Below, one piece after another: positions 16,103-51,431 of a stretch of DNA of 64,000 nt. The position numbers and the translations under genes are program-made. The notes beneath the pieces are model-generated. The model made no database searches. It saw nothing but the letters and a program-made list of their open reading frames with translations, and was not told where the DNA came from. The stretch comes from a virus: positions 1-64,000 of IMG/VR virus record IMGVR_UViG_3300044996_000496. One strand, written 5' to 3'. How positions within the stretch are numbered: the stretch's first letter is position 1; the number at the start of each line of letters is the position of its first letter.

Positions 16103-16644
16103 TTTGCATTTATCCTCATTTTTCTGCGTAATTTTTTTATAGCCTGCTGGTGGAGTGCGCGAATCCATTGTCCACTGCAATTTTTTTGTTTTGCTATTTC
16201 GTCAAATGATAATCCATCATAATATTTTAGTTTTACTATTTCTTTGAGTTGAGGATTTAGCTTTTCGATGGCTTCGCGAATTATGGTTGTATCATGTATA
16301 TCCATTGTATCGTTCGGTATTCCAAAAGTTAATTTATCCATGTCTATTTTGGTGCTCATTTCATCAATTGATATAATTATTGGTTTATATCTTTGTTTAT
16401 TTTTTTGATAGACTTTTCTTCCGTCTTTGTATTTAATGTATGCGTAAATTCTTTTTCTAATTTGAACCCATGCCCAATTTGTAAATGACCCCTTTGACTC
16501 ATCGTATGATCTGGACGCTTCCCACAATCCTATTTCAGATTCTTGCAATATGTCATCACTTTCATGCATTGTTCCAGTTCTTTTCATTATTCTGAATGCA
16601 TACATATGTGCTAATTTCTTATAATCTTTTATGTCTATTTCCAT
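16030..16644 (-). CDS. Phage sigma-70-family sigma factor B
   Basis: 204 residues. Region 2 at about 27-72: SDDILQESEIGLWEASRSYDESKG then FTNWAWVQIRKRIYAYIKY. Region 4 at about 125-172: LNPQLKEIVKLKYYDGLSFDEIAKQ then a recognition helix WIRALHQQAIKKLRR. The two-domain layout matches small phage sigma factors. It lies on the minus strand, opposite sigma factor A, together with a small zinc-ribbon gene. AGGAG lies 12 bases before the ATG. Two sigma factors imply a staged transcription programme. Confidence 0.87.
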   Translation of the reverse strand: MEIDIKDYKKLAHMYAFRIMKRTGTMHESDDILQESEIGLWEASRSYDESKGSFTNWAWVQIRKRIYAYIKYKDGRKVYQKNKQRYKPIIISIDEMSTKIDMDKLTFGIPNDTMDIHDTTIIREAIEKLNPQLKEIVKLKYYDGLSFDEIAKQKNCSGQWIRALHQQAIKKLRRKMRINAKCQPTSTDVTNANLSKKSHTISMM

Positions 16645-20365: not shown

Positions 20366-21313
20366 ATGCGAGTTTCTGGTTTAATGTGTGTGTGGAATTG
20401 TGTTGAATTTGTCGAGCAAGCAATTTTAGGTATTATTGATAAAGTTGATGAACTTGTTGTAGTTGATGGTTCATGGAATCTGGACAACAAAAAAGGCTCC
20501 ACTGACGGCACAGAAGAAAAAATAAAGAAGCTTGCCAAACAGTTTGACAAAAAGATTTTTTTTCTGCAATATACTCCAACTCATCCAGAAGAATATCAGC
20601 ATTACTACAATGATGAGCACAAAGAGCATGTTCTTGGGCATTTTAACAAGCATAAAAATCCGTTCTACAAGCCAGGAAGGTTATCGCAACAACAGCTTGG
20701 AAGGGATTTTGGATTAAATTTTATACGAAGCAGATACTGCGACGACCCGGACGGTCATTGGCTACTTATTGTTGATAGTGATGAATTTTATCCAGAATGG
20801 CAGTTTGTAAATGGTAAGACATTTCATGATATTATAGAGGAATCAGTGGCCGACGCTACAAAAGTAGCCTTTCATGAGCCTACGCTACTGGCCATAGAAG
20901 CCATGAACTTTTACTTTGATAGTAGACATTTTGCTAATGAGAGATTTAACAGAATATTTAGACTAAGGCGCGATTCTTGGTTTGTTGATTCTAATACGAT
21001 AACTGGTTGTATGGATTATAGATATAATATACCAAAGATACAGTGCATGTTTTTTCATTATAGTTATATTGGTTCTGCTTTCAGAATGGAGTCGAAACTA
21101 GACCGTTGGGATGACTCAATTGTAAAGCCTTGGATAGAAAGGGTTTATAATGAGCCAAACTTTTATCAAAAGATGAGGAACAACGGAGGGGGCATCCATT
21201 TGTTAGGCAGCGTACACCCAGGTTACCGTCGTTACATGCTCATGGAGTACGGGGGCGAGCATCCAGCCCTGGCCTCTTTGGCCTTAGGAAAAATTGTAAA
21301 TGAAAATACATGA
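20366..21313 (+). CDS. Glycosyltransferase, GT2-like (GT-A fold)
   Basis: 315 residues, first gene of the sugar cluster, behind AGGAGAGGTG. The N-terminus MRVSGLMCVWNCVEFVEQAI then VDELVVVDGSW is the GT-A nucleotide-binding start. LLIVDSDEFYPEW (about 130) supplies a D-x-D-E metal motif. It has the general form of family 2-type transferases acting on surface glycans. The end overlaps the next glycosyltransferase by 14 bases. Confidence 0.78.
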   Translation: MRVSGLMCVWNCVEFVEQAILGIIDKVDELVVVDGSWNLDNKKGSTDGTEEKIKKLAKQFDKKIFFLQYTPTHPEEYQHYYNDEHKEHVLGHFNKHKNPFYKPGRLSQQQLGRDFGLNFIRSRYCDDPDGHWLLIVDSDEFYPEWQFVNGKTFHDIIEESVADATKVAFHEPTLLAIEAMNFYFDSRHFANERFNRIFRLRRDSWFVDSNTITGCMDYRYNIPKIQCMFFHYSYIGSAFRMESKLDRWDDSIVKPWIERVYNEPNFYQKMRNNGGGIHLLGSVHPGYRRYMLMEYGGEHPALASLALGKIVNENT

Positions 21314-22163
21314 ATTACATAAAGGTTTTACAATAGGATTTCCAACTTGGAATAGATTAAATTATGTAAAAGCATGTGTTGAAAGTATTATTAAAAATAG
21401 TGCTTTTGAGCATGAGATTATTGTTCATATTAACGGTTGTACAGACGGAACTGTTGAGTGGGCAACCGATATGAAAAATAAGTATAGTTTTTTTGATTAT
21501 ACATATTCTGATAAAAATCTTGGTGTTGTTTTGGGCCACAATATTGCAATCAATAAAGGAACTAAAGATGTAGTATTAATTTCTGATAATGATATTTTAT
21601 TTTTTCCAGGTTGGGATATTGAGTTAGTAAATTTTGCTGAAAATAATGATGCTGATAAAAAATGGTGGATTAACTCTACTCCAATTGAGCCTCGCGGCGA
21701 CAGTCCATCATGTATTGCCCCTATGAATTACGGCACAACGATTGAAGAATTTAATTGGGATGCTGTTTTGCTTGATATAAATTATTTGCGTGGATTTAAA
21801 AAGTCAGTAAATTCCAATGTGTGCCCTGCGCTACTGTGGAGAGATAGTTTTGATAGCATTAACGGTCTAAATGAAGAGCTTGGGCTTGGGCTTGGCGCAG
21901 AGGATGATTTTGCTTTTAGAATGTGGAAGCATGTTGGTTGCAGAAATTTTGTTACAGTTCCGAATAGTCTAGTTTATCACTTTGCAGCAGGATTGAGCGG
22001 CGTGCAATCTTGGCCAGATAGGCAGAGTCACATGAATTTTCGTGATAATTATTTTATACAGAAATATGCTATGTGCAAAGAAGAGTTTATTTTTAATATT
22101 TTACGTAGAGGTAAACCTTGGACAAAAGATGGAATGGTTAGTTATGAGCAATATAAAAAATAG
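21300..22163 (+). CDS. Glycosyltransferase family 2
   Basis: 287 residues. FTIGFPTWNRLNYVKACVESI (10-30), EIIVHINGCTDGT (39-51), then LISDNDILFFPGW (about 97-109) with the D-x-D motif, and LGAEDDFAFRMW (about 200) as the catalytic acidic region. This is a classic GT2 inverting layout. Overlaps both neighbours, so translation is coupled. Confidence 0.85.
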   Translation: MKIHELHKGFTIGFPTWNRLNYVKACVESIIKNSAFEHEIIVHINGCTDGTVEWATDMKNKYSFFDYTYSDKNLGVVLGHNIAINKGTKDVVLISDNDILFFPGWDIELVNFAENNDADKKWWINSTPIEPRGDSPSCIAPMNYGTTIEEFNWDAVLLDINYLRGFKKSVNSNVCPALLWRDSFDSINGLNEELGLGLGAEDDFAFRMWKHVGCRNFVTVPNSLVYHFAAGLSGVQSWPDRQSHMNFRDNYFIQKYAMCKEEFIFNILRRGKPWTKDGMVSYEQYKK

Positions 22164-23307
22164 AATTTTATCTCTCGGTAATCAACCTATTGCTAATGGA
22201 TTTTTGGAAAAGCAGCATTATGCTACTGAATTTAGATACGATCTTTCTGTATATTTTGACAATAAAACTAAAATGTTAAAATTATGCAACACTGTTGCAA
22301 AAGAGCGTTTGTTTAATGCCGAATATGCATACAAAACTTCACACTCAAAAACAATGAGGGATCATTTTTATGATCTGGCTTTGATGTACAATTCTGCTAA
22401 AGTTATTGAAATAGGCAGTAACGACGGTGCGTTTATAGGTAATTTTGCTGGTGGTAAGAGCGTGGCGGTTGAGCCATGTGACAATATGGCAGAAATTACT
22501 AGAAAATTAGGAATATTGACATATAATAAATTTTGGGATATTGATTTAGCTGATGATATATTAACAGATTTTGGTAGTAAATTTGATTTGGTGTTTTCTG
22601 CAAATACAATGTGTCATATTGATGATTTAGATGGTGCATTTAGTGCCGTAAGTCACATTCTTGATGACGATGGAGTATTTATTTTTGAAGATCCGACTGC
22701 TTATAATATGATTTTAAATACTTCGTATGATCAAATATATGATGAGCATGTTTATGTGTTTAATTTGCATGGACTTTACGATATTTTGGCAAGAAATGGA
22801 TTGTATGTGTATGATGTTCTTGCATTGCCAAATATACACGGTGGTTCATTAAGGATAATATGCAAAAAACGTAAATATGATATTGATATACCGTGGTTCA
22901 GAAAAGAGGGACTTATTTTTGCAGATTCTGAAATTGGGTATCATATGTTTGCTCGTAATGTTTATGCATCTAGAGATAATCTTATATATTTATTGGAAAC
23001 ATTAAAAAATGATCACAAAAAAATTATAGCATATGGTGCGACATCTAAATCTACTGTTATATTTAATTTTTGTAATATTGGTGTTGATTTAATAGATTAT
23101 ATTATTGACACAACTCCAAGTAAAATAGGCAAGTTTTCTCCAGGTATGCATATTCCAATAGTAAATTTAGAAACTATACCAGATGATGTGGATTATGTAT
23201 TTTTATCTGCATGGAATTATGAAAAGGAAATATTATGTAAAGAGCGTGATTTTATTAAGAGAGGTGGAAAGTTTATTTCCCACGTTCCAATGATAAGGCT
23301 GATATGA
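22144..23307 (+). CDS. Sugar C-methyltransferase, NovU/TylCIII/TcaB9-like
   Basis: 387 residues. An N-terminal GNQPIANGFL segment, an S-adenosylmethionine site VIEIGSNDGAF (about 83-93), and the active-site DEHVYVFNL (about 200) equivalent to the Glu-His pair of TcaB9-type enzymes, then the C-terminal Methyltransf_14-type domain with IAYGATSKSTVI. These enzymes add a methyl group to C3 of a dTDP-keto-sugar. The usual N-terminal zinc cysteines are mostly missing. ATG 22144 chosen; a start at 22129 is also possible. Confidence 0.85.
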   Translation: MSNIKNRILSLGNQPIANGFLEKQHYATEFRYDLSVYFDNKTKMLKLCNTVAKERLFNAEYAYKTSHSKTMRDHFYDLALMYNSAKVIEIGSNDGAFIGNFAGGKSVAVEPCDNMAEITRKLGILTYNKFWDIDLADDILTDFGSKFDLVFSANTMCHIDDLDGAFSAVSHILDDDGVFIFEDPTAYNMILNTSYDQIYDEHVYVFNLHGLYDILARNGLYVYDVLALPNIHGGSLRIICKKRKYDIDIPWFRKEGLIFADSEIGYHMFARNVYASRDNLIYLLETLKNDHKKIIAYGATSKSTVIFNFCNIGVDLIDYIIDTTPSKIGKFSPGMHIPIVNLETIPDDVDYVFLSAWNYEKEILCKERDFIKRGGKFISHVPMIRLI

Positions 23308-23735
23308 GGACTACTTGTACAAATACATCCATAGATGATGTTGTTGAATTTAATTTTAAAAATTTTCCAGATAATAGTGGAATACTTGTTCCAGTAGAAT
23401 TTAAATTAGATGTTCCGTTTTATGTTGAAAGAGTATTTTATGTTTATGACTTTGCTAAGGATTGTGTTAGGGCAAAGCATGCTCATATAGAATCATTGCA
23501 GATAATTGTTTGTTTATTTGGGGAAGTTGAACTTAAGGTTAATGATTGTACTAGAGAAAAAAAGATATTATTAAATAGACCATTTAAGGCTGTTTATATT
23601 CCAAGAATGATTTGGGTTGAGATGACATCCATGCAAAATAACTCAATAATTTTATGTTTAACAAATACTCATTATGATAAGCTTGATTATATTATAAATT
23701 ATGAGGAGTTTGTATCATGCAAAAGAAAGTACTGA
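23304..23735 (+). CDS. dTDP-sugar 3,4-ketoisomerase, FdtA/QdtA/WxcM-like cupin
   Basis: 143 residues, single cupin. RAKHAHIESLQIIVCLFGEVEL (57-78) corresponds to the RGxHAH...Q motif of FdtA/QdtA, with candidate catalytic His59 and His61. AVYIPRMIWVEM is the second cupin strand. The family turns dTDP-4-keto-6-deoxyglucose into the 3-keto isomer, feeding a DegT aminotransferase. It lies between the C-methyltransferase and the epimerase. Confidence 0.85.
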   Translation: MRTTCTNTSIDDVVEFNFKNFPDNSGILVPVEFKLDVPFYVERVFYVYDFAKDCVRAKHAHIESLQIIVCLFGEVELKVNDCTREKKILLNRPFKAVYIPRMIWVEMTSMQNNSIILCLTNTHYDKLDYIINYEEFVSCKRKY

Positions 23736-24643
23736 TTACTGGCGGTCTTGGTCACATTGGTTCATATTTAATTCATAACTGGAATAAGAATGATCAAATT
23801 ATTGTAATTGATAATCTGTTAACGCAAAGATATTGTTCTTTGTTTTATTTGCCAGAAAATGTAAGATTTATTGAAAAAGATGTAAAACATATTAGTGATG
23901 AAGATTTAAACGGAGTTACACATATTATTCATTTGGCCGCTATAGTTGATGCTGCAAATAGTTTTTCCGATCCGTCTACAATAATGAGTGTTAACTGTGA
24001 GTATACGATAAAACTTTTAGAACTTTCAGAAAAATGCAAATCACTTGAATTTTTTATTTTTCCGTCAACAACTAGTGTTTACGGTTCAGGCACACCAAAA
24101 CAGATCTTTACCGAAGATAATAGTACACTTCTTAACCCGCAGAGTCCGTATGCAGAGTCCAAAGTACTGGCAGAGCGTGCTATAATGAAATCTAGTGTTC
24201 CTTTTCTAATATTAAGATTTGGCACAATATTTGGGCGTAGTATAGGAATGAGGTTTCAGACAGCGGTCAACAAATTATGTTTTCAGGCGGCATTTAATCA
24301 AAAATTAACAGTATGGAAAAAAAATATAGAATACTTTAGACCGTATTTAGGACTACATGATTGCTATAATCTTATCAATGGGTTGGTTTCTGGTAGGCAG
24401 TGCTTGAAATCTAGAAGTACATATAATGTTATAAGTTGCAATGAAAAACTTTCTAATATATTGAATATTATATGTTTCTATGTCGGTAAATTAGCTATTG
24501 ATTATGTTGATTCTCCGCTATTGAATCAAAATAATTATTTTGTTTCTGATGAAAAGATAAGAGAGTTTGGGTTTATTCCAGGCGACATGTTGGAGAATGG
24601 AATTTTTGAAACACTGTCTTATTTAGGTGTTAATAAAGTATGA
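23717..24643 (+). CDS. NAD-dependent sugar-nucleotide epimerase/reductase (extended SDR)
   Basis: 308 residues. ITGGLGHIGSYLI (7-19) is the NAD-binding G-x-x-G-x-x-G. FPSTTSVYG is the S/T active-site strand and YAESKVLAERAI is the catalytic Y-x-x-x-K. The active site has STTS rather than the T-D-E of RmlB-type 4,6-dehydratases, so epimerase or C4-reductase action is more likely. Overlaps the ketoisomerase gene by 19 bases. Confidence 0.85.
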   Translation: MQKKVLITGGLGHIGSYLIHNWNKNDQIIVIDNLLTQRYCSLFYLPENVRFIEKDVKHISDEDLNGVTHIIHLAAIVDAANSFSDPSTIMSVNCEYTIKLLELSEKCKSLEFFIFPSTTSVYGSGTPKQIFTEDNSTLLNPQSPYAESKVLAERAIMKSSVPFLILRFGTIFGRSIGMRFQTAVNKLCFQAAFNQKLTVWKKNIEYFRPYLGLHDCYNLINGLVSGRQCLKSRSTYNVISCNEKLSNILNIICFYVGKLAIDYVDSPLLNQNNYFVSDEKIREFGFIPGDMLENGIFETLSYLGVNKV

Positions 24644-25302
24644 AAAATATCGTATTTTTTGGTGGTTCTGGACAAGCAATTGTAATGCGCGGTATTGCTG
24701 AAGATTGTGGATTTGGGATTATTGCTATTTTGGATGAGTTTTTAAGTACAAAAAGAGTTTTTGATGATATACCATTTTTTTGTGGACCTTCGTGTATTGA
24801 TGAGTTTGTGGGTTCTGGAGAACTTACCAAAAACGGAGATATTTATTGTGCTGTTACGATAGGCAATCCAAATGGATTTAGACGTATTGAATTATACAAT
24901 AAACTTAAAAATGAATTTGGTTTCTTGCATACTAGTTTAATAGATAAAACAGCGATCTTGCGTTCACCATATTTGATTGGTGCAGGGGTTCAGATTCATC
25001 CTGGTGTTGTTGTTATGCCTAGATCTATGGTTGGGTCTTTTGTTATATTAAATACAAAATCACTGGTAGAGCATGAATGTATTTTAGAGGATGGAGTTGA
25101 GCTTGGCCCAGGGGCAATATTGTGCGGGTGTGTTACGGTGGGGAAGTGTAGTTGGATAGGTGCCGGGGCAGTTGTCAGACAGCGTATTACAATAGGCGAT
25201 AATTCTATTGTTGGAGCCGGGGCCGTGGTCGTTAAGGACGTCCCGAGTAATGTTATTGTTGTTGGTAATCCTGCTAGAATATTGAAGTATAACAAACAAT
25301 AG
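24640..25302 (+). CDS. Sugar O/N-acyltransferase, NeuD/FdtC-like left-handed beta helix
   Basis: 220 residues. The N-terminal NIVFFGGSGQA is the small Rossmann-like domain of the NeuD family. From about residue 100 the hexapeptide repeats begin (LIGAGVQIHPGVVVMPR...), with a candidate catalytic His in SLVEHECILEDG and a terminal VVVGNPARIL. It would transfer an acetyl group from acetyl-CoA to an amino sugar, the last step of Fuc3NAc or Qui3NAc synthesis. Confidence 0.88.
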   Translation: MKNIVFFGGSGQAIVMRGIAEDCGFGIIAILDEFLSTKRVFDDIPFFCGPSCIDEFVGSGELTKNGDIYCAVTIGNPNGFRRIELYNKLKNEFGFLHTSLIDKTAILRSPYLIGAGVQIHPGVVVMPRSMVGSFVILNTKSLVEHECILEDGVELGPGAILCGCVTVGKCSWIGAGAVVRQRITIGDNSIVGAGAVVVKDVPSNVIVVGNPARILKYNKQ

Positions 25303-25314
25303 AGGGATAGTATT

Positions 25315-25992
25315 ATGACAAAAAATGAATTTTGTGCTATTTTCAATTCTTTTGACACAACGAAAGTTACGTGTTCTGAGTGTTCGCATTATTCATTATG
25401 TTATTATAAACATTTTTCAGAATTATTAAATTCACAAAAGGTAATAAAAATTCTAGAATTCGGAGTTGATAAGGGGCAATCTCTGCTTATGTGGAATAGA
25501 TTATTCGCCAATTCAGAAGTGGTTGGTGTTGATAACAAAGAAGATAGGGTTGCGAATGCTGGTTTAATTTGTGCAGATATGGATATTACTGTTGTTTGTG
25601 GGGATCAGTCTAATATTTCGTTTTTGTCTGATTTGATAGATAATTTTGGGAAATTTGATATAATTATTGATGACGCTAGTCACATAAGTACTCAACAAAT
25701 AACATGTTTTGAGTATATGTTTGAGCACGGTCTTCTCGATTCTGGGCTTTATGTTATAGAAGATCTTGGCACATCTTATTGGTCGGACTGGTGTGACGGG
25801 GAAACGACAATGATAAAATATTTGCAAAAACTGGTTGACTCTGTGAATCATAGATTTTGGAAGCATGGGCGAATAAATGTAAAGCAATTGCCAGGAACTC
25901 GCGTTGACGGAGCATCCTATCTTGAGGAAAATGTAACCAGTATATGTTTTCACAGAGGAATATGTTTTGTTCAAAAAGGTAATAATTTTTAA
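25315..25992 (+). CDS. Class I SAM-dependent methyltransferase (sugar O-methyltransferase-like)
   Basis: 225 residues behind AGAGGGATAG. ILEFGVDKGQSLLMW (about 43-57) is the SAM-binding loop, VVGVDN the second strand, VVCGDQSN the third, and IIIDDASHISTQQ (about 119-131) a metal-type D-D-x-S-H motif as in macrocin/rhamnosyl O-methyltransferases. An N-terminal cluster CSECSHYSLC may bind metal. Likely methylates a hydroxyl of the sugar or glycan built by this cluster. Confidence 0.78.
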   Translation: MTKNEFCAIFNSFDTTKVTCSECSHYSLCYYKHFSELLNSQKVIKILEFGVDKGQSLLMWNRLFANSEVVGVDNKEDRVANAGLICADMDITVVCGDQSNISFLSDLIDNFGKFDIIIDDASHISTQQITCFEYMFEHGLLDSGLYVIEDLGTSYWSDWCDGETTMIKYLQKLVDSVNHRFWKHGRINVKQLPGTRVDGASYLEENVTSICFHRGICFVQKGNNF

Positions 25993-26012
25993 TTTTTTAT
26001 GGAGTGGTTTTT

Positions 26013-27116
26013 ATGTTTAATTTAATGGATTTTGCCGCTGGTCCAAGTATGACGAGCTTAGAAGAATCGTATGTTTTAGACGCCATGAAGAACTGGTACG
26101 GCAAGGACGCATATAAATATTGTGAAATGTTCCAGAAGCAGTTTGCGGATTATCATGGCAGAAAGTACGGTGTTATGACTACTAATTGCACATCGGCAAT
26201 ACACTTAGCTTTGATAGCTGCCGGGGTTCGTCCAGGTGATGAGGTTATTGTTCCAGAGCTTACTTGGACTGCCACTGCAGAGCCTATTGTCTGGCTTGGT
26301 GCTAAACCAGTTTTTTGTGATGTTGAGTATAGATCTTGGTGTATTAGTCCACGTTCTATTATAAATAAAATAACAAGAAAAACTAAAGCAATAATAGCAG
26401 TTGATCTTTATGGCAATATGCCGGATTTTAATGAAATTGTTGATATTTGTAATGATTATCATTTATCTTTAATAGAAGATTCTGCCGAGGCGCTGGGATC
26501 TAAATATATGGGTAGATTGGCTGGTACATTTGGAGAATCGTCTGTTTTTAGTTTTCATAGAACGAAAACGTTGGTGTGCGGAGAAGGTGGAATATTGTTG
26601 ACTGATGATAAAAAAATATATGATTGTGCTATGTATTTTCGAGATCATTGTAGAGATAAAAATAGAATGTACTATAATTTAAATATTGGATATAAATACA
26701 TGCCTTTTAATGTTCAGGCGGCTATTGCATATGGGCAATTGCAGAGAATAGATGAGTTAATTTCTATTAAGAGAAGACATCTTGATTTGTATAGGACTAG
26801 ATTGGAGAAAATTGGAATGTTAAATATAGATAATGATAATGTGTATAATGGTGCGTGGATAACTTGTTTTATGCCTGAAAAGCGTCTTTATAAAGAGACT
26901 GTTGCTGAGACGGCAGCTAAATTTAATATACCAATAAGACCATTTTATTATCCGTTGTCTTCTTTGCCGGCTTATGGTGAATTTGCTAATAAATGTAAGT
27001 TAAATGAATCGTCATACTATTATAGTCAATATGGAATCAATCTTCCTGGTGCAATGATTTTAAGTGATGATATGATTATGTATATTTGTGATATTTTGGA
27101 GAAATGTTATGATTAA
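26013..27116 (+). CDS. DegT/DnrJ/EryC1/StrS-family PLP aminotransferase
   Basis: 367 residues from ATG 26013 with ATGGAGTGG upstream. TTNCTSAIHLALIAAGVRPGDEVIVP (55-80), LIEDSAEALGSKY with PLP-binding Asp156, and VFSFHRTKTLVCGEGG with Schiff-base Lys185. It transfers an amino group from glutamate to a keto-sugar nucleotide, as FdtB does after FdtA. The end overlaps a second, diverged member of the family. Confidence 0.92.
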   Translation: MFNLMDFAAGPSMTSLEESYVLDAMKNWYGKDAYKYCEMFQKQFADYHGRKYGVMTTNCTSAIHLALIAAGVRPGDEVIVPELTWTATAEPIVWLGAKPVFCDVEYRSWCISPRSIINKITRKTKAIIAVDLYGNMPDFNEIVDICNDYHLSLIEDSAEALGSKYMGRLAGTFGESSVFSFHRTKTLVCGEGGILLTDDKKIYDCAMYFRDHCRDKNRMYYNLNIGYKYMPFNVQAAIAYGQLQRIDELISIKRRHLDLYRTRLEKIGMLNIDNDNVYNGAWITCFMPEKRLYKETVAETAAKFNIPIRPFYYPLSSLPAYGEFANKCKLNESSYYYSQYGINLPGAMILSDDMIMYICDILEKCYD

Positions 27117-28068
27117 GTTATTTAATATTGGAAATTTTGAGATAAATACGTCTAGGTTTGATAATTTGTTGCATGGAAAAGTTGTTTTTGAGTTTGAGCG
27201 TAAATTTTCCGAGTATGTTGGCGCGAAGTATGCGTGTTCTTTTTCAAGTGCGAGTATGGCAATTTTTGCCATTTTTAAGTTATTTGATGATTTGCGTAGT
27301 ATTATAAATATACCAACAATGATACCACATGTTGTTGTTAACTCAATATATAACGCAGGATACAAAATCAATTTTGTTGATAATAACCAGTGGGTGGGCA
27401 ATTGCTACTTATTGCATACATTTCGAGATGGGGTTAAGATATTTGATTCTGCTCAACAGGTTGAACGTTTTCAATATAAAAATATGTGTAATGACAATGA
27501 TATTATGATATTTAGTTTTTATCCAACTAAACCTATTGGTAGTTGCGATGGAGGGATGGTTGTTTCAAATGATATGGATGTAATTAAAAGATTAAGAGAA
27601 TTTTCAATTAATGGAACTGCATTTAGTACAAACAGTTGGGATAGGGTAATTACCATGTGTGGCGGCTGGAAAGTGTATATGAACTCAGTGCAGGCATACA
27701 TGGCCAGTTGTAATTTAGATAATTTTGAGAATAAAATTGAAAAGTTAAATCAAATTAGAAAAATATATAATAAATTTATTGGAGAGATTTCTGTTACAAA
27801 TAATAGTAATCATTTATATAGAATAAGAGTAAGCAATAATAAAGAATTTTGTGCAAAAATGCTTAAAGCTGGAATTATGTGTGGAATACACTATGAAACA
27901 CTTCATAATCATGACAAGTATAGAGATATCTGCGTCAATGATGTTGGTTGTGATTTTGTTAAATCTATATTTGATTCCAAAACAGTGGCAAGCATACCAT
28001 TTCACGATAATATGAGTTATAGCGAAGCAGAGTATGTCGTTAAAAGCGCTATTGCATTAAGTAATTGA
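27109..28068 (+). CDS. Second, diverged DegT-family PLP aminotransferase-like protein
   Basis: 319 residues from ATG 27109. YACSFSSASMAIFAIF, VKIFDSAQQVE with Asp113 and IFSFYPTKPIGSCDGGM with Lys141 mark PLP-binding positions, so it may be active although it is shorter and diverged. It follows the canonical copy directly. The pair could make two different amino sugars or form a heterodimer. It overlaps a convergent gene by 12 bases at its end. Confidence 0.8.
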   Translation: MIKLFNIGNFEINTSRFDNLLHGKVVFEFERKFSEYVGAKYACSFSSASMAIFAIFKLFDDLRSIINIPTMIPHVVVNSIYNAGYKINFVDNNQWVGNCYLLHTFRDGVKIFDSAQQVERFQYKNMCNDNDIMIFSFYPTKPIGSCDGGMVVSNDMDVIKRLREFSINGTAFSTNSWDRVITMCGGWKVYMNSVQAYMASCNLDNFENKIEKLNQIRKIYNKFIGEISVTNNSNHLYRIRVSNNKEFCAKMLKAGIMCGIHYETLHNHDKYRDICVNDVGCDFVKSIFDSKTVASIPFHDNMSYSEAEYVVKSAIALSN

Positions 28069-28932
28069 TTTTGATATTTCAATTATTTTTTTTGCCCAGT
28101 TGTTTCTGCTATATTTTTGAACCCCAATAAATCCATTATATCTTATTCTATTTCTTTCATCTGTATTTTTTAAGTAATATTGTATTTTTTCATTTAGATC
28201 ACTTATGGAGTCGAATATGACCAAGTGTTCTTTATCAATAAATATGTCAGATCTTCCGAGCCAATCATTTGTTAGTAGAAATCCTCCAGCGGCCAATATT
28301 TTGTATACCCTATCCGACATACAGTTAGCTGTACACATATTGAGATTGATTTTACTTCTGCTAACAACGTTTGCATGCTCCTTGGCAAATGCGTTCTGGA
28401 ATACCTGTATTTTTGTTGTTACAGAATTTATAAGATCTGCTCTGTAGCCGTATATACTCCCAATAAATGAAACATCTATGTCCTGTTCAGTGCAATGTCT
28501 TGGCCTGTCAATGTCCTGGTCGAAGCCCTCTGGAACTAAAAAGGTATTTTTGTTGAGCCTGTATGCATCTTGATATACTTGTGGTTTGTCACAGCATACA
28601 AATGAGCAGTAGAGGGCTTTTGTTCTAGCCTCGGCGTCCCAATTTGGTGTTGCATCCATAAACCATAGGCATGTTTTTGAATATTTATTGCACTCATGAA
28701 TTACTCGTATGTTTACAAGATTTCCTTTGCTGAAGATAACTAAGTCTGGAAGTTCGGTTTTGCATACTTCAATTATTTCTAGGTCTCTTTTTTCCCTGCT
28801 GCCAAGCTCGTCTGCGCGTACCCTAAAATTGTATTTTATTACCTCTGCTCCGCTGTGTTCTAGTCCCCTGGCCTGCGAATTGTTCGTTGACTTGTTAAGT
28901 TCGTCAAATACTGCAATAAATAATATTTTCAT
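28057..28932 (-). CDS. Glycosyltransferase, GT-B fold, CgeB-like
   Basis: 291 residues. LFIAVFDELNKSTNN at the start, LVPEGFDQDI in the middle, and SKINLNMCT...DRVYKILAAGGFLLTND (about 197-225), the donor-binding signature of CgeB/Glyco_trans_1_2 proteins. First of the leftward arm to be met from the left, but last in its operon. Probably adds a sugar to a phage or host acceptor. Confidence 0.75.
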   Translation of the reverse strand: MKILFIAVFDELNKSTNNSQARGLEHSGAEVIKYNFRVRADELGSREKRDLEIIEVCKTELPDLVIFSKGNLVNIRVIHECNKYSKTCLWFMDATPNWDAEARTKALYCSFVCCDKPQVYQDAYRLNKNTFLVPEGFDQDIDRPRHCTEQDIDVSFIGSIYGYRADLINSVTTKIQVFQNAFAKEHANVVSRSKINLNMCTANCMSDRVYKILAAGGFLLTNDWLGRSDIFIDKEHLVIFDSISDLNEKIQYYLKNTDERNRIRYNGFIGVQKYSRNNWAKKIIEISKSIT

Positions 28933-39972: not shown

Positions 39973-40089
39973 GTGAAAGTGGGCGACGACGAAGGTTGGG
40001 ACATTTTCACCGTATGTTTTAGAAATTTTGTTATTTTTGTTGTTTGTATTTTTATTGCCGTTGTCGTTATTTCTTATGTTTGTAAATAA
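39973..40089 (+). CDS. 38-residue membrane peptide
   Basis: GTG start (39973, or 39979 in frame) after GGAG. The polar N-terminus is followed by a long hydrophobic segment (about 16-36) ending in CK. A single transmembrane helix is predicted. It occupies the gap between two exported-protein genes. Confidence 0.45.
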   Translation: MKVGDDEGWDIFTVCFRNFVIFVVCIFIAVVVISYVCK

Positions 40090-40102
40090 GGAGTGGTTTG
40101 AC

Positions 40103-40948
40103 ATGAGGGTTTTGAGTTTATTTTTAATTTTATTGTTTAGTTCTTTAAGTTTTGCCGATACGGCTCGACCTTTGATAAGCACGAGTTTTGAAGATGGTTT
40201 TGCCGGATTGGCCGGATTAGGGGCTGATACGTTAGAGTGGGGTATAGTGTTATACAATGGGGACGGCGCGAGCTGTTATATTGATTCAACGGTTTCTTAT
40301 TTGGGTTCTAAATCTTTAGCGGTTACTGGAGATTCTGGAGCAGCTGGCATAAGGTGCTGGGCTGAGATTTTCTTTCCTATGAGCAAATGGTTACACGTTA
40401 GGTATATGGCTCGTTATGATCGGCCATTTGTTGGTCTTGGAGAGCATCCATCTGGATTGATACACTATTGGAATGACGTTAAAGATAACCCAATTGGTGA
40501 TGGTAAAAAAATGTGCAGAATTGGTTTACAATCCTCAAGTGTAACCCTTATGTCGTGCGGACTGGAAGACACACTTCGAGTGTTGCCGTCAGATTCGTTG
40601 GCGCTTTATTTTGTTACACGCGATGATACATGTGGTTTGAATTCGCAGTTACCGACTAGGTGTTATGGAATTATCAAAAGGGATGAATGGCATCGTTATG
40701 ACATAATAATGAAAAATGAGTCAAGTGGATATATTAAGCGTTATGTTGATGGCAAATTGGTTTATTCTGAATCAGCAGTATTGGATACATCTGCGGCGAA
40801 TTATTTGCATCTTGGAATTTGGAATTCTTTTGGTACTCAGATTGGTGAAGGTTCTTATTATTATGATTGTTTATTAGTTGATACTTCATATAGTATTCCG
40901 TGTCGTGCGGCAGAGTTGGGGCTTGATTCGCTTCCGATGAGAAGGTAG
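40103..40948 (+). CDS. Exported ConA-like lectin/lyase-fold protein
   Basis: 281 residues from ATG 40103 with AAGGAG upstream. Signal peptide MRVLSLFLILLFSSLSFA. The mature part has EWHRYDIIMKNESSGYIKRYVDGKLVYSES (about 197-226), typical of concanavalin-like polysaccharide-binding or lyase domains, and starts with a STSFEDGF strand. Six cysteines suggest disulfides. Could bind or cut a surface glycan. Confidence 0.65.
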   Translation: MRVLSLFLILLFSSLSFADTARPLISTSFEDGFAGLAGLGADTLEWGIVLYNGDGASCYIDSTVSYLGSKSLAVTGDSGAAGIRCWAEIFFPMSKWLHVRYMARYDRPFVGLGEHPSGLIHYWNDVKDNPIGDGKKMCRIGLQSSSVTLMSCGLEDTLRVLPSDSLALYFVTRDDTCGLNSQLPTRCYGIIKRDEWHRYDIIMKNESSGYIKRYVDGKLVYSESAVLDTSAANYLHLGIWNSFGTQIGEGSYYYDCLLVDTSYSIPCRAAELGLDSLPMRR

Positions 40949-40956
40949 GTGTTGAT

Positions 40957-41739
40957 GTGAAGAAAATTATTGTTGGGATTATATGTTTAACTTTTATTTC
41001 AAGTTTAGTTTTTCCGTCCTCTCGGATTTTTTATGCTGGCATGGAAACTGGAGATTTTAGTGAATTTTCTAGCACAAGAACGAACGGGACTGCAACATTA
41101 ACAAATACTGGGGTATATCAGTTTTGCGGAACAAAGAGTGCAATGTCATCTGTCTCATCTGGTGTTAGTAGTAGAGCATTTGCAAACAAAGGAATTACGT
41201 CATCCAGTTATTTGCATATCAAGACAAGATTTTGCAATCAGTGGGATTCTGGTGGCTCAAACCCTAAAACAATTTTTGGATGTTTTAAAGTTAGTGACGG
41301 AACAAATTCAAGATTGACGGTTCGTTTAAAAGATGCAACTCCGAGTAATTATAATAGTAACTTTACATTCAATGTTGCGGTAAAAGATTCTGCGGCTCAT
41401 GCAAATATTTCGACCGACATTGCTACTCCATTGGTTACTGACAGTGTATGGTTTGATTTTGATGTTTTTATTTCAAAGGGTGTATCAGATGGAGAAATTT
41501 CTCTTTGGGTAAACGGAGTTTTACTGCTATCGCTTGATACACTACATACAAGTGGTGCCATGCCAGATAGTATTTCTTGGGGATGCATAGCAGGTTGGAC
41601 CACTGGAGATATTGGTACTGTTTGTTTTGATGAAATTGTTATGGACACGATGAGTTGTGGCCCTCCGTGTGGTTTGGTTTTTAGAAATGGAATTAGACAG
41701 GTTTGGTCTGGGATGAAGAGTTGGTTTTCATGGCTATAG
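40957..41739 (+). CDS. Exported ConA-like fold protein
   Basis: 260 residues, GTG start. Signal peptide MKKIIVGIICLTFISSLVFP. Mature part: RIFYAGMETGDFSEF at the start, SSYLHIKTRFCNQWDSG, and SDGEISLWVNGVLLLSLDT (about 182-200), the jelly-roll pattern of LamG/ConA-like domains. It ends with a hydrophobic W-rich segment. Sits between the ConA-like 40103 gene and paralog B of the flanking pair. Confidence 0.63.
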   Translation: MKKIIVGIICLTFISSLVFPSSRIFYAGMETGDFSEFSSTRTNGTATLTNTGVYQFCGTKSAMSSVSSGVSSRAFANKGITSSSYLHIKTRFCNQWDSGGSNPKTIFGCFKVSDGTNSRLTVRLKDATPSNYNSNFTFNVAVKDSAAHANISTDIATPLVTDSVWFDFDVFISKGVSDGEISLWVNGVLLLSLDTLHTSGAMPDSISWGCIAGWTTGDIGTVCFDEIVMDTMSCGPPCGLVFRNGIRQVWSGMKSWFSWL

Positions 41740-45083: not shown

Positions 45084-45115
45084 CCTTCAGGGGGGGGCAA
45101 TACCCCCTCCTGAGG
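45084..45115 (+). terminator. GC-rich hairpin after the decoration-type gene, no T-run
   Basis: CCTTCAGGGGGGGG (45084-45097) pairs with CCCCCTCCTGAGG (45103-45115) with one bulge and one wobble, loop CAATA. No T-run follows, so it may be a weak terminator or an mRNA-stabilising hairpin separating this gene from the capsid gene. Confidence 0.6.
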
Positions 45116-45146: not shown

Positions 45147-46064
45147 GTGGATATAGAAAAATTAACTTACAGAGAAATTGATATTGAATTACAAAAGGCA
45201 TTGGCGTCTATAAACTGGAGGGATCCGCAAGAACGTTCGGCATTTGCTGAGACTATTGTGGAGGTTGTTAAGTATGATGTTGAAAGAGACAATCTAATAG
45301 ATTTGTTTGCCGAACAGGAGGTTATTCCAGTTGGAGCCTCGAAAGAATGGGTTGTTCGTAAGGGCATAAAAGCTTACATTCATGAGCCTGGTTCATATGC
45401 TCCAAGATCAACGATTACTAACATTACCAACACAATCCAGTCTGAAATGGCATCGGTCCATCCTCAGATGGAGCTTGGCCAGCTAGAGTCCGGTCGCTAT
45501 GGAACCGTTGCTGATATACGAAAAATGTGCAAGGATGAGCTTTTGGGAATGAAGTATGGCACAATTTGGAACGTTATGATAGCGTCAATTGCTTCTAGTG
45601 ATAGCAACTATCAAACGTATTCTGCAACAAATGATAATTTGGTTACAAAGAAAAACGTACTGGTTTCTGGTTTGAAGTGGGTAAATGATATAGGTCAAGG
45701 GGCTAAGGCCATAGTTGGTAGATATTCCCTTGTTTCTGACATTACTGAATTTGATGGATATTCAGAAACGTGGAAAGAGCAGGTAGACAGAGAGGGATTC
45801 CTTGGTGCATTTAGAGGAGTTCCTATTTTGTCACTTAAGCAATACACCAATGGTGATGGCATTAGGATGATTAATGCTGATAACGTATTTATTTCTTCAA
45901 ATGGAACGGCCAAAATTGCAGTAACCCAGGAATTGCGCGTTGAGGAAGATAAGGATATTGATACATTGTTCTGGCATATGCATATGTACGAGAAGTACGG
46001 ATGTGCAGTGTTCTTCCCTGAGCGAAATTACAGAATTGCTGTTACAAGCAGTCCTTGGGGTTAG
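45147..46064 (+). CDS. Major capsid protein (HK97 fold)
   Basis: 305 residues, GTG start behind AAGGGGGTGAAATA. Landmarks of an HK97-type capsid: an N-terminal helical arm, a long helix ALASINWRDPQERSAFAETIVEVV, a beta-rich E-loop region, GAKAIVGRYSLVSDITEF, and RGVPILSLKQYTNGDG followed by INADNVFISSNGTAKIAV. It is shorter than many such proteins, since the scaffold is a separate gene. Flanked by hairpins on both sides. Confidence 0.85.
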   Translation: MDIEKLTYREIDIELQKALASINWRDPQERSAFAETIVEVVKYDVERDNLIDLFAEQEVIPVGASKEWVVRKGIKAYIHEPGSYAPRSTITNITNTIQSEMASVHPQMELGQLESGRYGTVADIRKMCKDELLGMKYGTIWNVMIASIASSDSNYQTYSATNDNLVTKKNVLVSGLKWVNDIGQGAKAIVGRYSLVSDITEFDGYSETWKEQVDREGFLGAFRGVPILSLKQYTNGDGIRMINADNVFISSNGTAKIAVTQELRVEEDKDIDTLFWHMHMYEKYGCAVFFPERNYRIAVTSSPWG

Positions 46065-46082
46065 TATTCGGCAAGTAAGCCG

Positions 46083-46102
46083 GGGCGAGATTTTTCTCGC
46101 CC
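46083..46102 (+). terminator. Hairpin after the major capsid gene
   Basis: GGGCGAGA (46083-46090), loop TTTT, TCTCGCCC (46095-46102): a perfect 8-bp stem. A smaller stem CCCTC/GAGGG follows directly. There is no T-run, so attenuation or mRNA protection is more likely than full termination. Confidence 0.6.
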
Positions 46103-46126
46103 TCAGTTCGAGGGAAGGAGAGGGTG

Positions 46127-48520
46127 ATGAATGGTCAAATTGAATTTAACAAGGATCTTATAACGCTTCTTTGGTATGGAGATTCTCCGTGTGTATCAAC
46201 TGGATTTGGCATAGTCAGTCAGAGTGTATTGTTTAGATTATGGCAAACTGGTAAATATAGAATAGTTGCCGTTGGAATTAATGATCGAGGCGAAGACCAC
46301 CCATTAAAAAAGCTCCCAAATTTCCATGTTATGCCCTGTCCTTATCTTGACAGGGATCCATATGGTTATCAAGTGTTGCCGGAAGCGATTAAGCGATTTA
46401 AACCAGATGTCATTTTTGCTTTAAATGACATTTGGTTACTTGCTGGCGATAGTGGTAAGGGGAATCTAAATTGGTGGGAGAGTTTGTTGCGCCAGCATGC
46501 CCCAGGTGTGCCGTGGGCAATATACTTCCCAATTGATGGTCGTCCTCTTGCTAAGGAGTGGGGGCGCGTTATGCGCTCCTCGTGGTCGCCTGTTGTATAC
46601 AGTAAATACGGATATGATGTTATTAAAGATGAAATACCTGATGTTAATCCTGAGTTGATTTATCATGGAGTTGATCTTGAGACGTTTAGGCCGATAGGTG
46701 ATAAAGAAAAAATACTTTTTGTTAGAAGACATTTGGGTATTCCAGAAGATCATAAACTTATTGGTGTAGTTGGCAGAAATCAGCCAAGAAAGAACATACC
46801 GCTTGCTCTTAGGATATTTAAGTATTTTAAGGATGGGTATAAAAAATGTAAAAATTGTGGTGGATATGCATCATTACATGAAAGATCGTGTGAGTTGTGT
46901 GGTATGAGTGATTTTGATAAAGTATATGATGGATTTAACAAAGTTTCTATGTATTTGCATATGAACTTAAGAGATGGATTTGGATTTAACATTCCTAAGG
47001 TAATAGCTGATGAGAAGGTAAGTGGAATATCTTTTAATCCCGATCATCATATTGCTCATGGCGTTCCGGCTGAGGTTTTGAATTTACTATATAATTCTTT
47101 TGATGTTATGTTTTTGCCAACTATGAGTGAAGGATTTTGTCTTCCAATTTTGGAGTCAATGGCCGCTGGTACACCAGTGATAGCAACAGCCGGAACTGCC
47201 CAAAAAGAATTACTTGTGGATGGTGGCGGAATTCCAATTATTCCACAAGATTATATTATTTTAACCGATGCTGCAAATGTAAGACGACATATTATGCGTA
47301 TACCGGACGCAGTAAATGCTCTTGAAAAGATTCTAACTGATCAAAAATATCATGATGAGTTGGCAATAAAAGGGCTTAGATACGCAGCCTCTCGCGGGTG
47401 GGATGTGTCGGCTCAGCAGTTTGATGAGTTAGTTACTAAAATGTTGAATAAGCGTATATCAGTTGTTGATTCTTTCAATGAAACTAAAGAACCAAAAATT
47501 TTATTCTATAGACCAATAGGTTCTGCTGGAGATATATTAATTACAACCCCAGTAATACACGCTGTTCGTGAATTGTATAAGGATTCAGATATAGTGTATG
47601 CTGTTCCTGAAAAATATATAGAGTTATTAGATGGGAACGATGATATAAATAAAGTTATTCCATGTGATTTTATGTGGGATGGCAGTAGAAGAAAGGGCGC
47701 TGCACAGTCAACCAAAATAGCTAAAGTTGATTTATTTGGAGTCGAGGATAGAATAGAGTCTGCTTTAGCTCCAAATGTTATTTTTAGTAGACAAGAGATT
47801 TATTCTAATCATTGCAAGGTAAAGCCAGAGAGTATGAAGTCGGTGTACAATATTTCTGCACAAGAAAAAGAGTGGGCAGATGCTCTAATTCCGCAGAACG
47901 GTGAGTACAAAATAGGTATAAAGGTTGACACCGAAGAGCCGTATTTGGCTATTAGTGCTGGAGAATGGATAAAATTAATTGAGTTTTTCGTAAAACGTAA
48001 TGATGAGAAAATTTATATTTTCGTACAAGATAGAGCGCATTTCCCAGTTGATGAGTGGATGAGGCTTGTTCCAGATGGAGTTACTGTTTTTTGTTTTGAT
48101 AAAGAAGAAAAACCATACAGAAAAATGATAGCAGCAATGAATAATATGAATATGATCGTTTCTTGTGATGGAAGTTTTATTCACTTTGCTGGGATGCTTG
48201 GGAAACCGCTTGTTGCAATTTATGGACCAAATGATTGGCGACAAAAGTTAAAACATTATAAGAATGTGTTTCCGGTATTTAACTCAATGTGTCAAATGAT
48301 GCCTTGCTGGAGAAATCAGAATTCTCCATGTAGATTAACTGGTCAACAAGAGAGTGTGTGTTTAAGGGAAATGAAGGCCGGGATGATAGTATCCGCTATA
48401 ATTAAGGCAAAAAAAGAATCGCTAATATCTGAAAATAAATCAGTAGCAAAAACACAAGAAGAGATTCAAAGAAAAACAATATTAAGGGAAAAAAGAAAGC
48501 AAAGAAGGAACAGAAGATAA
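46127..48520 (+). CDS. Two-module glycosyltransferase (GT4-type plus GT9-type) with zinc-ribbon insert
   Basis: 797 residues from ATG 46127 with AAGGAGAGGG upstream. Module 1 (about 1-440) is a GT-B transferase: VYSKYGYDVIKDEIP, IYHGVDLETFRP, VVGRNQPRKNIPLALRIFK, then MFLPTMSEGFCLPILESMAAGTPVIAT, the E-x7-E donor motif of GT4. A CKNCG...CELCG zinc ribbon is inserted near 240. Module 2 (about 455-740) starts ILFYRPIGSAGDILITTPVI and has CDGSFIHFAGMLGKPLVAIYG, the GT9 layout. The tail is a basic helix. Placed between capsid and neck genes. Confidence 0.85.
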   Translation: MNGQIEFNKDLITLLWYGDSPCVSTGFGIVSQSVLFRLWQTGKYRIVAVGINDRGEDHPLKKLPNFHVMPCPYLDRDPYGYQVLPEAIKRFKPDVIFALNDIWLLAGDSGKGNLNWWESLLRQHAPGVPWAIYFPIDGRPLAKEWGRVMRSSWSPVVYSKYGYDVIKDEIPDVNPELIYHGVDLETFRPIGDKEKILFVRRHLGIPEDHKLIGVVGRNQPRKNIPLALRIFKYFKDGYKKCKNCGGYASLHERSCELCGMSDFDKVYDGFNKVSMYLHMNLRDGFGFNIPKVIADEKVSGISFNPDHHIAHGVPAEVLNLLYNSFDVMFLPTMSEGFCLPILESMAAGTPVIATAGTAQKELLVDGGGIPIIPQDYIILTDAANVRRHIMRIPDAVNALEKILTDQKYHDELAIKGLRYAASRGWDVSAQQFDELVTKMLNKRISVVDSFNETKEPKILFYRPIGSAGDILITTPVIHAVRELYKDSDIVYAVPEKYIELLDGNDDINKVIPCDFMWDGSRRKGAAQSTKIAKVDLFGVEDRIESALAPNVIFSRQEIYSNHCKVKPESMKSVYNISAQEKEWADALIPQNGEYKIGIKVDTEEPYLAISAGEWIKLIEFFVKRNDEKIYIFVQDRAHFPVDEWMRLVPDGVTVFCFDKEEKPYRKMIAAMNNMNMIVSCDGSFIHFAGMLGKPLVAIYGPNDWRQKLKHYKNVFPVFNSMCQMMPCWRNQNSPCRLTGQQESVCLREMKAGMIVSAIIKAKKESLISENKSVAKTQEEIQRKTILREKRKQRRNRR

Positions 48521-49629
48521 TGAAAAAGCTAAATGTATTTTTCCCAGTGCCAAGAATTTATGGTCCATCGTTGCACGAGACAAAGAATAAGTTATTTGAA
48601 TACGGTAAAGATTTTGCAAAAGAGGCTGACGATTGGATAGATGCTGATGTTATAGTTTTACAATTAATAGGAGACCCGGACAGAAAAAATTTAGTTCATC
48701 CGTCTGAGGTAGTTTTTAGTGATTTAATTAAAGTAATTATGGATAATATGAATCATATTCCAACTATTGTTTTTCCGTTGTGCAATATAAACAATACCAG
48801 CAATTGGAGATATTTATTTGAAAATGCTTCTATGATTTACAGTTATTTAGATGTTGATTATCAAATTAAGCACGTTGATGGGCAATTATTACCATTTGTG
48901 TTTAATAAGTCAGTTGTTGTGCGAGAGCCTCTTGGGGTGGAACCTGGAGATTTTTTTAGAGAAGACGATATGCAAAAACAATATTTAATTTATACATTTG
49001 GATTTGATAAAGAGACAGAATCAATAGACATAATTTTTGATGCAACAGTATTATTTAACTCAACCAGAGAAAATTTGGGTCTTCCGATATTGAAGATGTT
49101 GCATAGCGGGAGGGACTTTGGTTTTGATAGTAAGTATTATCAATTTGAGACGCCTGCTCCACAAAATCAAAAGGGTATAGTTAGAGCTAGGTACAATAGT
49201 TCTTACTTTGCCAATGCGCTTAGAGCAGACGCTTGGGTTGAGGGTGGATTTGAGATGGCTAACATAGAGGCTCCGTTGTGTGGATGTCAACCTATAACTT
49301 ATAATTTTGAGTGTTATCAGCATTGGTTTAAGGGTATTTCGGAATTTGTTAATGTTCCACTAAACACAGACCCAAGAAGTTTATCTAATAGAAAACACGT
49401 TGTTGAGCAATTGGTTAATATTTTTAATCGTGGAACTAATGGAAGAGATAAAATCTATAAGTATACTGTTTCAGTTAATGATAGTGATGATGAAGATGAA
49501 AAAACTAAAGAAATTGGAAGTAAATTAGATTTGTTTGACGATAAAAGAAACATGATTTATGAAAGATTTTTGTGGGAAAATGTTGCAAGTACATTTTGGA
49601 AAGAGGTGTTGAATAAATGTGCAAAATAA
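48520..49629 (+). CDS. Glycosyltransferase-like protein (GT-B fold)
   Basis: 369 residues, sharing one base with the preceding stop. VLQLIGDPDRKN is followed by a donor-side segment with RARYNSSYFANALRADAWVEGGFEMANIEAPLCGCQPI (about 222-260), where an acidic residue precedes a C/G loop as in GT-B enzymes. A charged C-terminal domain follows. Acts with the flanking transferases. Confidence 0.65.
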   Translation: MKKLNVFFPVPRIYGPSLHETKNKLFEYGKDFAKEADDWIDADVIVLQLIGDPDRKNLVHPSEVVFSDLIKVIMDNMNHIPTIVFPLCNINNTSNWRYLFENASMIYSYLDVDYQIKHVDGQLLPFVFNKSVVVREPLGVEPGDFFREDDMQKQYLIYTFGFDKETESIDIIFDATVLFNSTRENLGLPILKMLHSGRDFGFDSKYYQFETPAPQNQKGIVRARYNSSYFANALRADAWVEGGFEMANIEAPLCGCQPITYNFECYQHWFKGISEFVNVPLNTDPRSLSNRKHVVEQLVNIFNRGTNGRDKIYKYTVSVNDSDDEDEKTKEIGSKLDLFDDKRNMIYERFLWENVASTFWKEVLNKCAK

Positions 49630-50354
49630 GTATTGTTACTGTTTTAAGAAATTCAGCTCATATATTTGATAAGTTTATTGATTGTATTGCCAGTAACATG
49701 GGTTTAGATTACGAATTAATCTTAGTTGATAATCATAGTAGAAAAGATTGTGCTAGTTTTTATGATTATGTGTTGTGTAAGCATTCATTGCAAGATAATG
49801 TTTTATTTATTAATAATGATAAAAATTTAATGTTTACAAGAGCCGTAAACCAAGGATTGGAAAAATCCAGTGGACAATACATATGGTTGTTAAATCCAGA
49901 TGTATATATCGAAAAGGATGTTGATAAAAAATCTGTTGATTTTTTTGTTAATCATTTAAATATTGGTATTGCTGGATATAAACTTGTTAAAGTTGATGGA
50001 TTTATTGAGCATGCCGGAATATGGGAAGAGGGTGGCGATCATAGGGGGCGTGGAGAGTTAGACGGTGCCGATAAGTATAATACTCCAGAGTGTTGTAGGT
50101 GGGTTACCTTTGGCGCTGCCATGTTTACTCGTGATCTGTATATTAAGTTAGGAACATTGGATGATAAAATATATCCACATTTTGGATCAGACAGAGAGTA
50201 TTGTGATAGGGCTAAAAAAAGTGGATACGATGTGTGGTATTTGCCGTATAAGTTAATACATGTTTATGGTAACTCTTGTAGACCTTATGTTTTTGATGAT
50301 TTACCTGATTATCTTATGGAAAACGGGAAACCAGCAAGAAAAATATGGAAGTAG
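49617..50354 (+). CDS. Glycosyltransferase family 2 (rhamnosyltransferase-like)
   Basis: 245 residues. ISIVTVLRNSAHIFDKFIDCI, DYELILVDNHSRKD, VNQGLEKSSGQYIWLLNPDVYI (with the D-x-D equivalent N-P-D-V) and YPHFGSDREYCDRAKKSGYDVWYLP. Complete for a GT-A catalytic domain. Third transferase in the block between capsid and neck genes; overlaps the previous gene by 13 bases. Confidence 0.85.
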   Translation: MCKISIVTVLRNSAHIFDKFIDCIASNMGLDYELILVDNHSRKDCASFYDYVLCKHSLQDNVLFINNDKNLMFTRAVNQGLEKSSGQYIWLLNPDVYIEKDVDKKSVDFFVNHLNIGIAGYKLVKVDGFIEHAGIWEEGGDHRGRGELDGADKYNTPECCRWVTFGAAMFTRDLYIKLGTLDDKIYPHFGSDREYCDRAKKSGYDVWYLPYKLIHVYGNSCRPYVFDDLPDYLMENGKPARKIWK

Positions 50355-50369
50355 GATGGTGGATCTTTT

Positions 50370-51431
50370 ATGTCTTATTCTGATATAACAATTACTTTTG
50401 ATGCTATAGCTGAGGCAGAGTCTATAAACATTTGTAAGGCTGATACTGAAGGCGGGGTATATGCTGTTATAGCGAATGTTGCCGCAGACTCAACAAGTTA
50501 TGTGGATAAATTTGGAACAATAGGAAGTTGGTACGCAGTAGCCCCTGTTATTAGTGGATTTGAGTATGGCTCTTTGAGAAACTGGCAAATGGGGTTTGGC
50601 CGCGATATAGATTTAATGGCGGATCAGGTAAGAAGATTATTGCCAGATCCCAAATCTACGTTTTCCCCGCAGACTCGCGAGGAGCTTGGCACTGCAAGTG
50701 GATCACTAGCATCTCCCACAGATGAGGAATTTGAGGTTGACTATTTGCCGATGGCTGCTTATGGCGTTTTTCTTTGGGTTGACCGATATCCATACGAATT
50801 AATTATTCATTCTGGATTTTTGGACTCTAATCGCAATCAGGCTATTTTGAGCAGGGAGAATGGTACGTTTGTTGTTCCGTATTGTAAACATTCTGGAACG
50901 GTATACGCTAACTATATTTGGGAAGAGCCTAAAGCATATAAATTTTCCGATTATGAGATAAGGCTGTTCTTAAAGGACTCGGTTCCAGAAATCAATAGTA
51001 TGTTTGGATGTTCGATAGCAACCAGTGGACTTGGTGACGATTTAACATTTACGTCAACCCTTACACCAACTCAATCGCAGGCTCTTGTTCTTATGGCTAC
51101 AATATCGGCCAAGCAGGCGCTGAAGTCAACTGGTACTCTTGACGCAATTTACATAAAAGATGGAGACACGGTAATTGATACATCTAGAGCACTAAAGACA
51201 GCAAGAGATGAAATTAGCGACTTACGGCATAGATTGCAGCAATTATTGGAAAATAGTTACATGTATGATCAGGTTGCAGAGTCAGCTGGATATTGGGTTG
51301 GATACCGTATAGACAATTATTCAACCGCCGTAGACGATACTCAAACTGGTTTGATTTCAATAGGGGCATATATGGAGTTGAATAACATAAGCGAAGGGAA
51401 GGCGCTTATGCAAGGATACGATAATTCATAA
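50370..51431 (+). CDS. Virion structural protein, probable neck/head-tail connector
   Basis: 353 residues behind TAGGATGG. The N-terminus ITFDAIAEAESINICKADTEGGVYAVIA... looks like an Ig/fibronectin-like domain. The middle has FGRDIDLMADQVRRLLPD, common in connector proteins, and the C-terminus is helical. Assigned by position after the capsid genes. Confidence 0.55.
   Translation: MSYSDITITFDAIAEAESINICKADTEGGVYAVIANVAADSTSYVDKFGTIGSWYAVAPVISGFEYGSLRNWQMGFGRDIDLMADQVRRLLPDPKSTFSPQTREELGTASGSLASPTDEEFEVDYLPMAAYGVFLWVDRYPYELIIHSGFLDSNRNQAILSRENGTFVVPYCKHSGTVYANYIWEEPKAYKFSDYEIRLFLKDSVPEINSMFGCSIATSGLGDDLTFTSTLTPTQSQALVLMATISAKQALKSTGTLDAIYIKDGDTVIDTSRALKTARDEISDLRHRLQQLLENSYMYDQVAESAGYWVGYRIDNYSTAVDDTQTGLISIGAYMELNNISEGKALMQGYDNS

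Follow-up and report, generated by a model that had tools for sequence, protein, structure and literature searches.

In the literature that we found, few phages, for the most part mycobacteriophages, have documented glycosylation of the virion. The virions of mycobacteriophages Che8, Corndog and Myrna are reported to be glycosylated by phage-encoded transferases (Freeman et al. 2023, as cited in PMC12363180, PMC11256854 and PMC12619734), and glycosylation shields mycobacteriophage particles from antibodies (PMC12363180). The transferases of Che8 lie at the right genome end; those of the Corndogvirus Familton are part of the head module, where they occupy the portal-protease/capsid interval together with an O-methyltransferase. 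For chlorovirus PBCV-1 (A064R), multi-domain, virus-encoded transferases were described that build the glycan of the major capsid protein (PMC9614988). Here we analyzed a window of 64,000 nucleotides, corresponding to positions 1 to 64000 of the 87,578-base IMG/VR virus record IMGVR_UViG_3300044996_000496 of a tailed phage, in which glycosyltransferase genes directly follow the major capsid gene. The capsid-adjacent placement of a family GT4 transferase recurs across many phages, which is the new observation made here, and the genes probably constitute a glycosylation cassette that is expressed late and modifies the virion proteins of the phage itself. The features on which this reading is built are:

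45147 to 46064, plus strand: major capsid gene (HK97 fold), 305 residues (NCBIfam NF042927, 6wkk, PHROG 2522)
46127 to 48520, plus strand: two-module protein of 797 residues (GT4 at residues ~10-445, GT9-like at ~456-760, basic helical tail)
46847 to 46900, plus strand: CxxC...CxxC (zinc-knuckle-like) insert in the GT4 module, residues 241-258, from alignments
48520 to 49629, plus strand: open reading frame (ORF) of 369 residues without family, possibly a diverged GT-B protein, with one EGGFEM...E-type motif
49617 to 50354, plus strand: GT2 glycosyltransferase, 245 residues (PF00535, 3.5e-14)
21300 to 28932, strand not given: separate sugar cluster, from family matches

The capsid protein matched NCBIfam NF042927 ('HK97-fold major capsid protein') with 86.4 bits at a cut-off of 80 and PHROG 2522 (major head protein) with 6.9e-5, and its family profile found the solved 6wkk 'Gp27 major capsid protein' (3.7e-6). 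As the NF042927 cut-off was passed, 6wkk was matched and the surrounding terminase, portal and tape-measure-type genes follow the order expected for a tailed phage, 45147 to 46064 was assigned as the major capsid gene. The three following ORFs are encoded on the plus strand with overlapping starts and stops, so that the coupled run directly after the capsid gene, which had been proposed in the original prediction, was recovered. The gene caller placed the start of the first ORF one codon earlier (GTG at 46124, 798 residues). No membrane segments were found in the proteins of 797, 369 and 245 residues.

The N-terminal module of the 797-residue protein matched Pfam Glycos_transf_1 (PF00534; 5.8e-15, 55.7 bits, curated cut-off 26.4) and the PHROG 2170 glycosyltransferase (2.3e-35). 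It was modelled confidently as a GT-B fold that aligns to BshA, MshA and PimA (Z-scores 31-35), the best model alignment having a Z-score of 34.9 over 343 residues and a root-mean-square deviation of 3.5. Both glutamates of the EX7E motif (E335 and E343) are present, and R221, K222 and E343 are conserved. GT4 membership is thus confirmed at the level of profiles and structure model. The Cys4 insert, which may bind metal, is common to the sister contig L021 and missing from five other aligned phage relatives.

For the C-terminal module, matches were obtained to Pfam GT9 (PF01075; 2.3e-4, 21.0 bits, slightly below the cut-off of 22), to NCBIfam heptosyltransferase III (TIGR02201; 3.2e-9, below the equivalog cut-off) and to the solved GT9 protein 3tov (5.4e-7). 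Since the PF01075 and TIGR02201 scores are under the curated cut-offs, the module, predicted earlier as GT9 type, is referred to as GT9-like. It was modelled at low confidence; the fold search, made with the GT4 module only, listed matches of that module, which does not argue against GT9. With the lipopolysaccharide (LPS) heptosyltransferases of family GT9 (WaaF/WaaC type, TIGR02201, 3tov) it shares the DxSxxH and C-terminal Cys motifs, but it differs from them in its sub-cut-off scores, in its fusion to GT4 and in having a sister module that may be degenerate. Among the fetched loci a GT9-like module was found only in L021. GT4 relatives of ~900 residues were observed in two other viral contigs (L028:5753-8443, L095:9947-12634), and the C-terminal part of the L028 protein weakly matches the window GT2. 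A second transferase may have been fused to a capsid-adjacent GT4 more than once.

The 245-residue protein is a GT2 (53.5 bits against PF00535, cut-off 23.3) and carries the metal-binding D motif LLNPDV in its translation. The 369-residue ORF, which had been counted as a third, GT-B-like transferase, gave no match in Pfam, PHROGs, NCBIfam, PDB sequences and phage records. Its GT4-like motif scored E 3e-4 with the GT4 hidden Markov model (HMM) and an hhalign probability of 2.8% over 25 columns, and its structure model (predicted local distance difference test 39) was too poor for a fold search. Its assignment as GT-B is therefore unproven, and of the three predicted glycosyltransferases two were retained.

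A search seeded with three GT4 proteins yielded 80 viral loci. Dereplication of these, the other fetched loci and the query at 80% identity left 58 representatives. When IMG/VR was searched with the 797-residue, capsid or 369-residue protein singly, no relative was returned, and a GT4 alignment of six members proved too diverse as query; IMG/VR relatives surfaced only through alignment queries. Neighbouring genes were called on the plus strand, after spurious minus-strand calls had been obtained on high-GC (guanine plus cytosine) contigs. The capsid gene ends less than 2.5 kb upstream of the GT4 gene on the same strand in 24 of the 34 dereplicated viral loci in which a capsid gene was detected. 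In a 25th locus (L065) the capsid gene abuts the GT4 gene, but the GT4 ORF call overlaps the capsid match. Of the 22 records with a length of 15 kb or more, 14 (L065 included) are capsid-adjacent, compared with 1.9 expected under uniform placement (nominal P ~1e-10, an optimistic value as it assumes independence). A GT2 gene follows within 1.5 kb downstream of GT4 in 24 of 56 related loci. The three genes preceding GT4 (136 proteins) belong most commonly to the PHROG families of major head, scaffolding, tail terminator and portal proteins, while those after it encode major tail proteins, glycosyltransferases, methyltransferases, epimerases and homing endonucleases. The capsid genes preceding GT4 are different major capsid genes across many tailed phages.

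Individual genomes show the same arrangement. L021 has the identical order TerL-portal-protease-decoration-capsid-GT4/GT9 with 31-41% identity per protein; upstream of its TerL, sugar epimerase-like and radical-SAM-like genes were read from the translation (L105:63-2022), the former indicating that the cassette is associated with sugar genes in L021 as well. In L016 and two contigs grouping with it, which were retrieved by capsid similarity alone, GT4 lies three genes after the capsid gene. The annotated order in Pontimonas phiPsal1 is capsid-GT4-methyltransferase-GT2-neck, and further annotated examples of GT4 beside the capsid gene are Microcystis Mae-JY09 and Synechococcus S-CBS4. The phages of PHROG 2170 (phiPsal1, Mae-JY09, S-CBS4 and Tetrasphaera TJE1) carry a GT4 module homologous to that of the window (24-28% identity), and its gene is often next to the capsid gene and accompanied by GT2 and a methyltransferase; the GT9-like C-terminal module and the Cys4 insert distinguish the window protein from theirs. 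In more distant phages of the same capsid family (Bacillus Stills, Microcystis MaeS and GX15bay) no transferase is annotated at the junction, which is consistent with insertion. For the window, the predicted position between capsid and neck genes was verified on the capsid side; the gene after GT2 (50370-51431) matched no family in Pfam, PHROGs or NCBIfam, leaving its designation as a neck gene unconfirmed, and genes beyond it match neck/tail-region genes of L016. No earlier account of recurring capsid-adjacent transferases in phages was found in the searchable literature, a search outside which most subscription papers fall.

Soluble proteins, the enzyme identities, the capsid gene, the gene order shared with L021 and the GT4 recurrence were counted in favor of virion glycosylation. 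In the mechanism that we infer, the genes would be expressed late and sugars would be added successively by the GT4 module, with the GT2 and the GT9-like module as probable partners, to an acceptor from the same operon, namely a capsid, decoration or tail protein. A scan of the Ser/Thr content of the capsid protein for an obvious glycan-acceptor region showed no conspicuous stretch. Donors would be host nucleotide sugars and perhaps also products of the phage amino-sugar cluster at 21-29 kb, which may be linked to the capsid-adjacent genes. This cluster encodes a GT2, a C-methyltransferase, an FdtA-type isomerase, an epimerase/dehydratase, a NeuD/PglB-type acetyltransferase, a methyltransferase, two DegT-type aminotransferases and a minus-strand glycosyltransferase. 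As no NTP_transferase was found in the 87.6-kb record, the host would have to supply the initial nucleotide sugar of the pathway. A further GT2 outside the window (G000:C1 78774-79493, L101:16774-17493; PF00535 2.2e-12) was observed directly after a gene for a putative tail/receptor-binding protein of 2813 residues, so that transferases flank both the head and the tail module.

Several points weigh against virion glycosylation. GT4, GT9 and GT2 are also families of polysaccharide synthesis, and the acceptor of the capsid-adjacent transferases is predicted from gene order. The survey started from GT4 seeds that already lay beside capsid genes, and its loci have common ancestry, which biases the counts. 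GT4 is placed elsewhere in S-EIVl and in TJE1, in the latter upstream of TerL, and at larger distances in several contigs. The GT9-like module of L021 has lost the D-S-H motif. Moreover, the capsid-region enzymes are not homologous to mycobacteriophage transferases: an HMM search with the GT4 profiles and the window proteins against Che8 gp108-110 gave no match. The locus resembles the mycobacteriophage system (Che8 gp110, Corndog gp38, Myrna) in having several phage-encoded transferases in a row, and Familton in their location in the head module. Given the lack of homology to the Che8 enzymes, this similarity would be convergent, and the cassette would work like the mycobacteriophage system and not be a member of it; glycosylation was shown experimentally for the Che8/Corndog type, whereas here it is proposed from the genes alone. 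The chloroviruses share virus-encoded multi-domain transferases, and their protein 3oy2 was among the best structural matches of the GT4 module, but these are eukaryotic viruses with another capsid fold, and a capsid role of the 3oy2 protein is questioned in a review (PMC9614988). The earlier proposal of virion glycosylation, deduced from the late-module position, is thus partly supported: the positional argument was strengthened by GT4, often with GT2, behind different capsid genes and by the mycobacteriophage/Corndogvirus precedent, while its acceptor side continues to rest on inference next to a standing rival.

That main rival is late modification of host surface glycans for superinfection exclusion, receptor masking or release of progeny from debris, with the late operon serving for timing only. 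We regard it as unlikely. In its favor, the best NCBIfam neighbours of the transferases are LPS, teichuronic and exopolysaccharide enzymes, such a role was proposed for the glycosyltransferases of pelagimyophages (PMC7029224), and the same phage encodes sugar-biosynthesis genes. On the other hand, the proteins are soluble, GtrA (PF04138) was not found in the record (controls matched 7/14), and the recurrence is at the capsid junction and not beside receptor-binding genes. Late action would also give little time for rebuilding the surface. O-antigen (serotype) conversion of the gtr type was not supported, given the absence of PF04138 from the record and of membrane segments from the three ORFs.

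Less probable still is that the capsid-neck junction is a neutral hot spot which tolerates insertions, and that the transferases are passengers without a role in the virion. The lack of annotated junction transferases in Stills, MaeS and GX15bay would fit this, as would the homing endonucleases among the downstream neighbours of GT4 and the lower GC content of the two downstream ORFs (0.33 versus 0.41 for the capsid gene), but random cargo predicts no recurrence of the same GT4 family, often with GT2. Glycosylation of hypermodified bases of the phage DNA, a known activity of phage transferases (PMC12619734, PMC12838424), is very improbable because the companion hydroxymethylase gene was not found (thymidylate-synthase-type PF00303 not found in the record, controls matched 9/14; Tet_JBP, PF12851, no match in the record, though no control matched either), and the genes are located in the head module, not with replication genes.

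The 62-base gap between the capsid and the transferase gene is largely occupied by a further feature:

46068 to 46101, plus strand: two adjacent RNA hairpins (RNA fold -24 kcal/mol, z -2.35)

No T-run is present 3' of these hairpins, so they do not form a classical terminator; they could be an attenuator or a processing site. At the same junction of L021 a 13-bp stem was found (z -3.48), and no terminator-like sites were detected on the plus strand between 44 and 51.5 kb. The decoration-capsid gap also contains an RNA stem of 13 bp (45085-45115), which resembles the stem 3' of the capsid gene and possibly tunes expression among head genes. Two phage-encoded sigma-70-like factors (13400-14038, plus strand; 16030-16644, minus strand) could direct middle or late transcription. 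In addition, two consecutive genes in the portal-protease interval (40028-41739) resemble polysaccharide lyases (PF14099 1.1e-6, just under the cut-off; the other 0.008), and the early region contains a glycosyl hydrolase family 12 gene (10622-11437; 2e-14), an unusual phage cargo.

Returning to virion glycosylation, the recurrent placement suggests that these phages sugar-coat their particles themselves. Tentatively, and with less confidence than for the window itself, the GT4-GT2 cassette behind the capsid gene may be a capsid-glycosylation module that is widespread among tailed phages; virion glycosylation would then be common beyond mycobacteriophages and predictable from gene order, and the GT4/GT9-like fusion with its zinc-knuckle-like insert would be one polypeptide chain attaching two sugars in succession to a virion protein. 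If gene order does predict glycosylation, an isolated observation would become a general, testable question on the protection or targeting of particles. Several phages with the capsid-adjacent GT4 layout are cultured, and the answer would bear on the recognition of therapy phages by antibodies.

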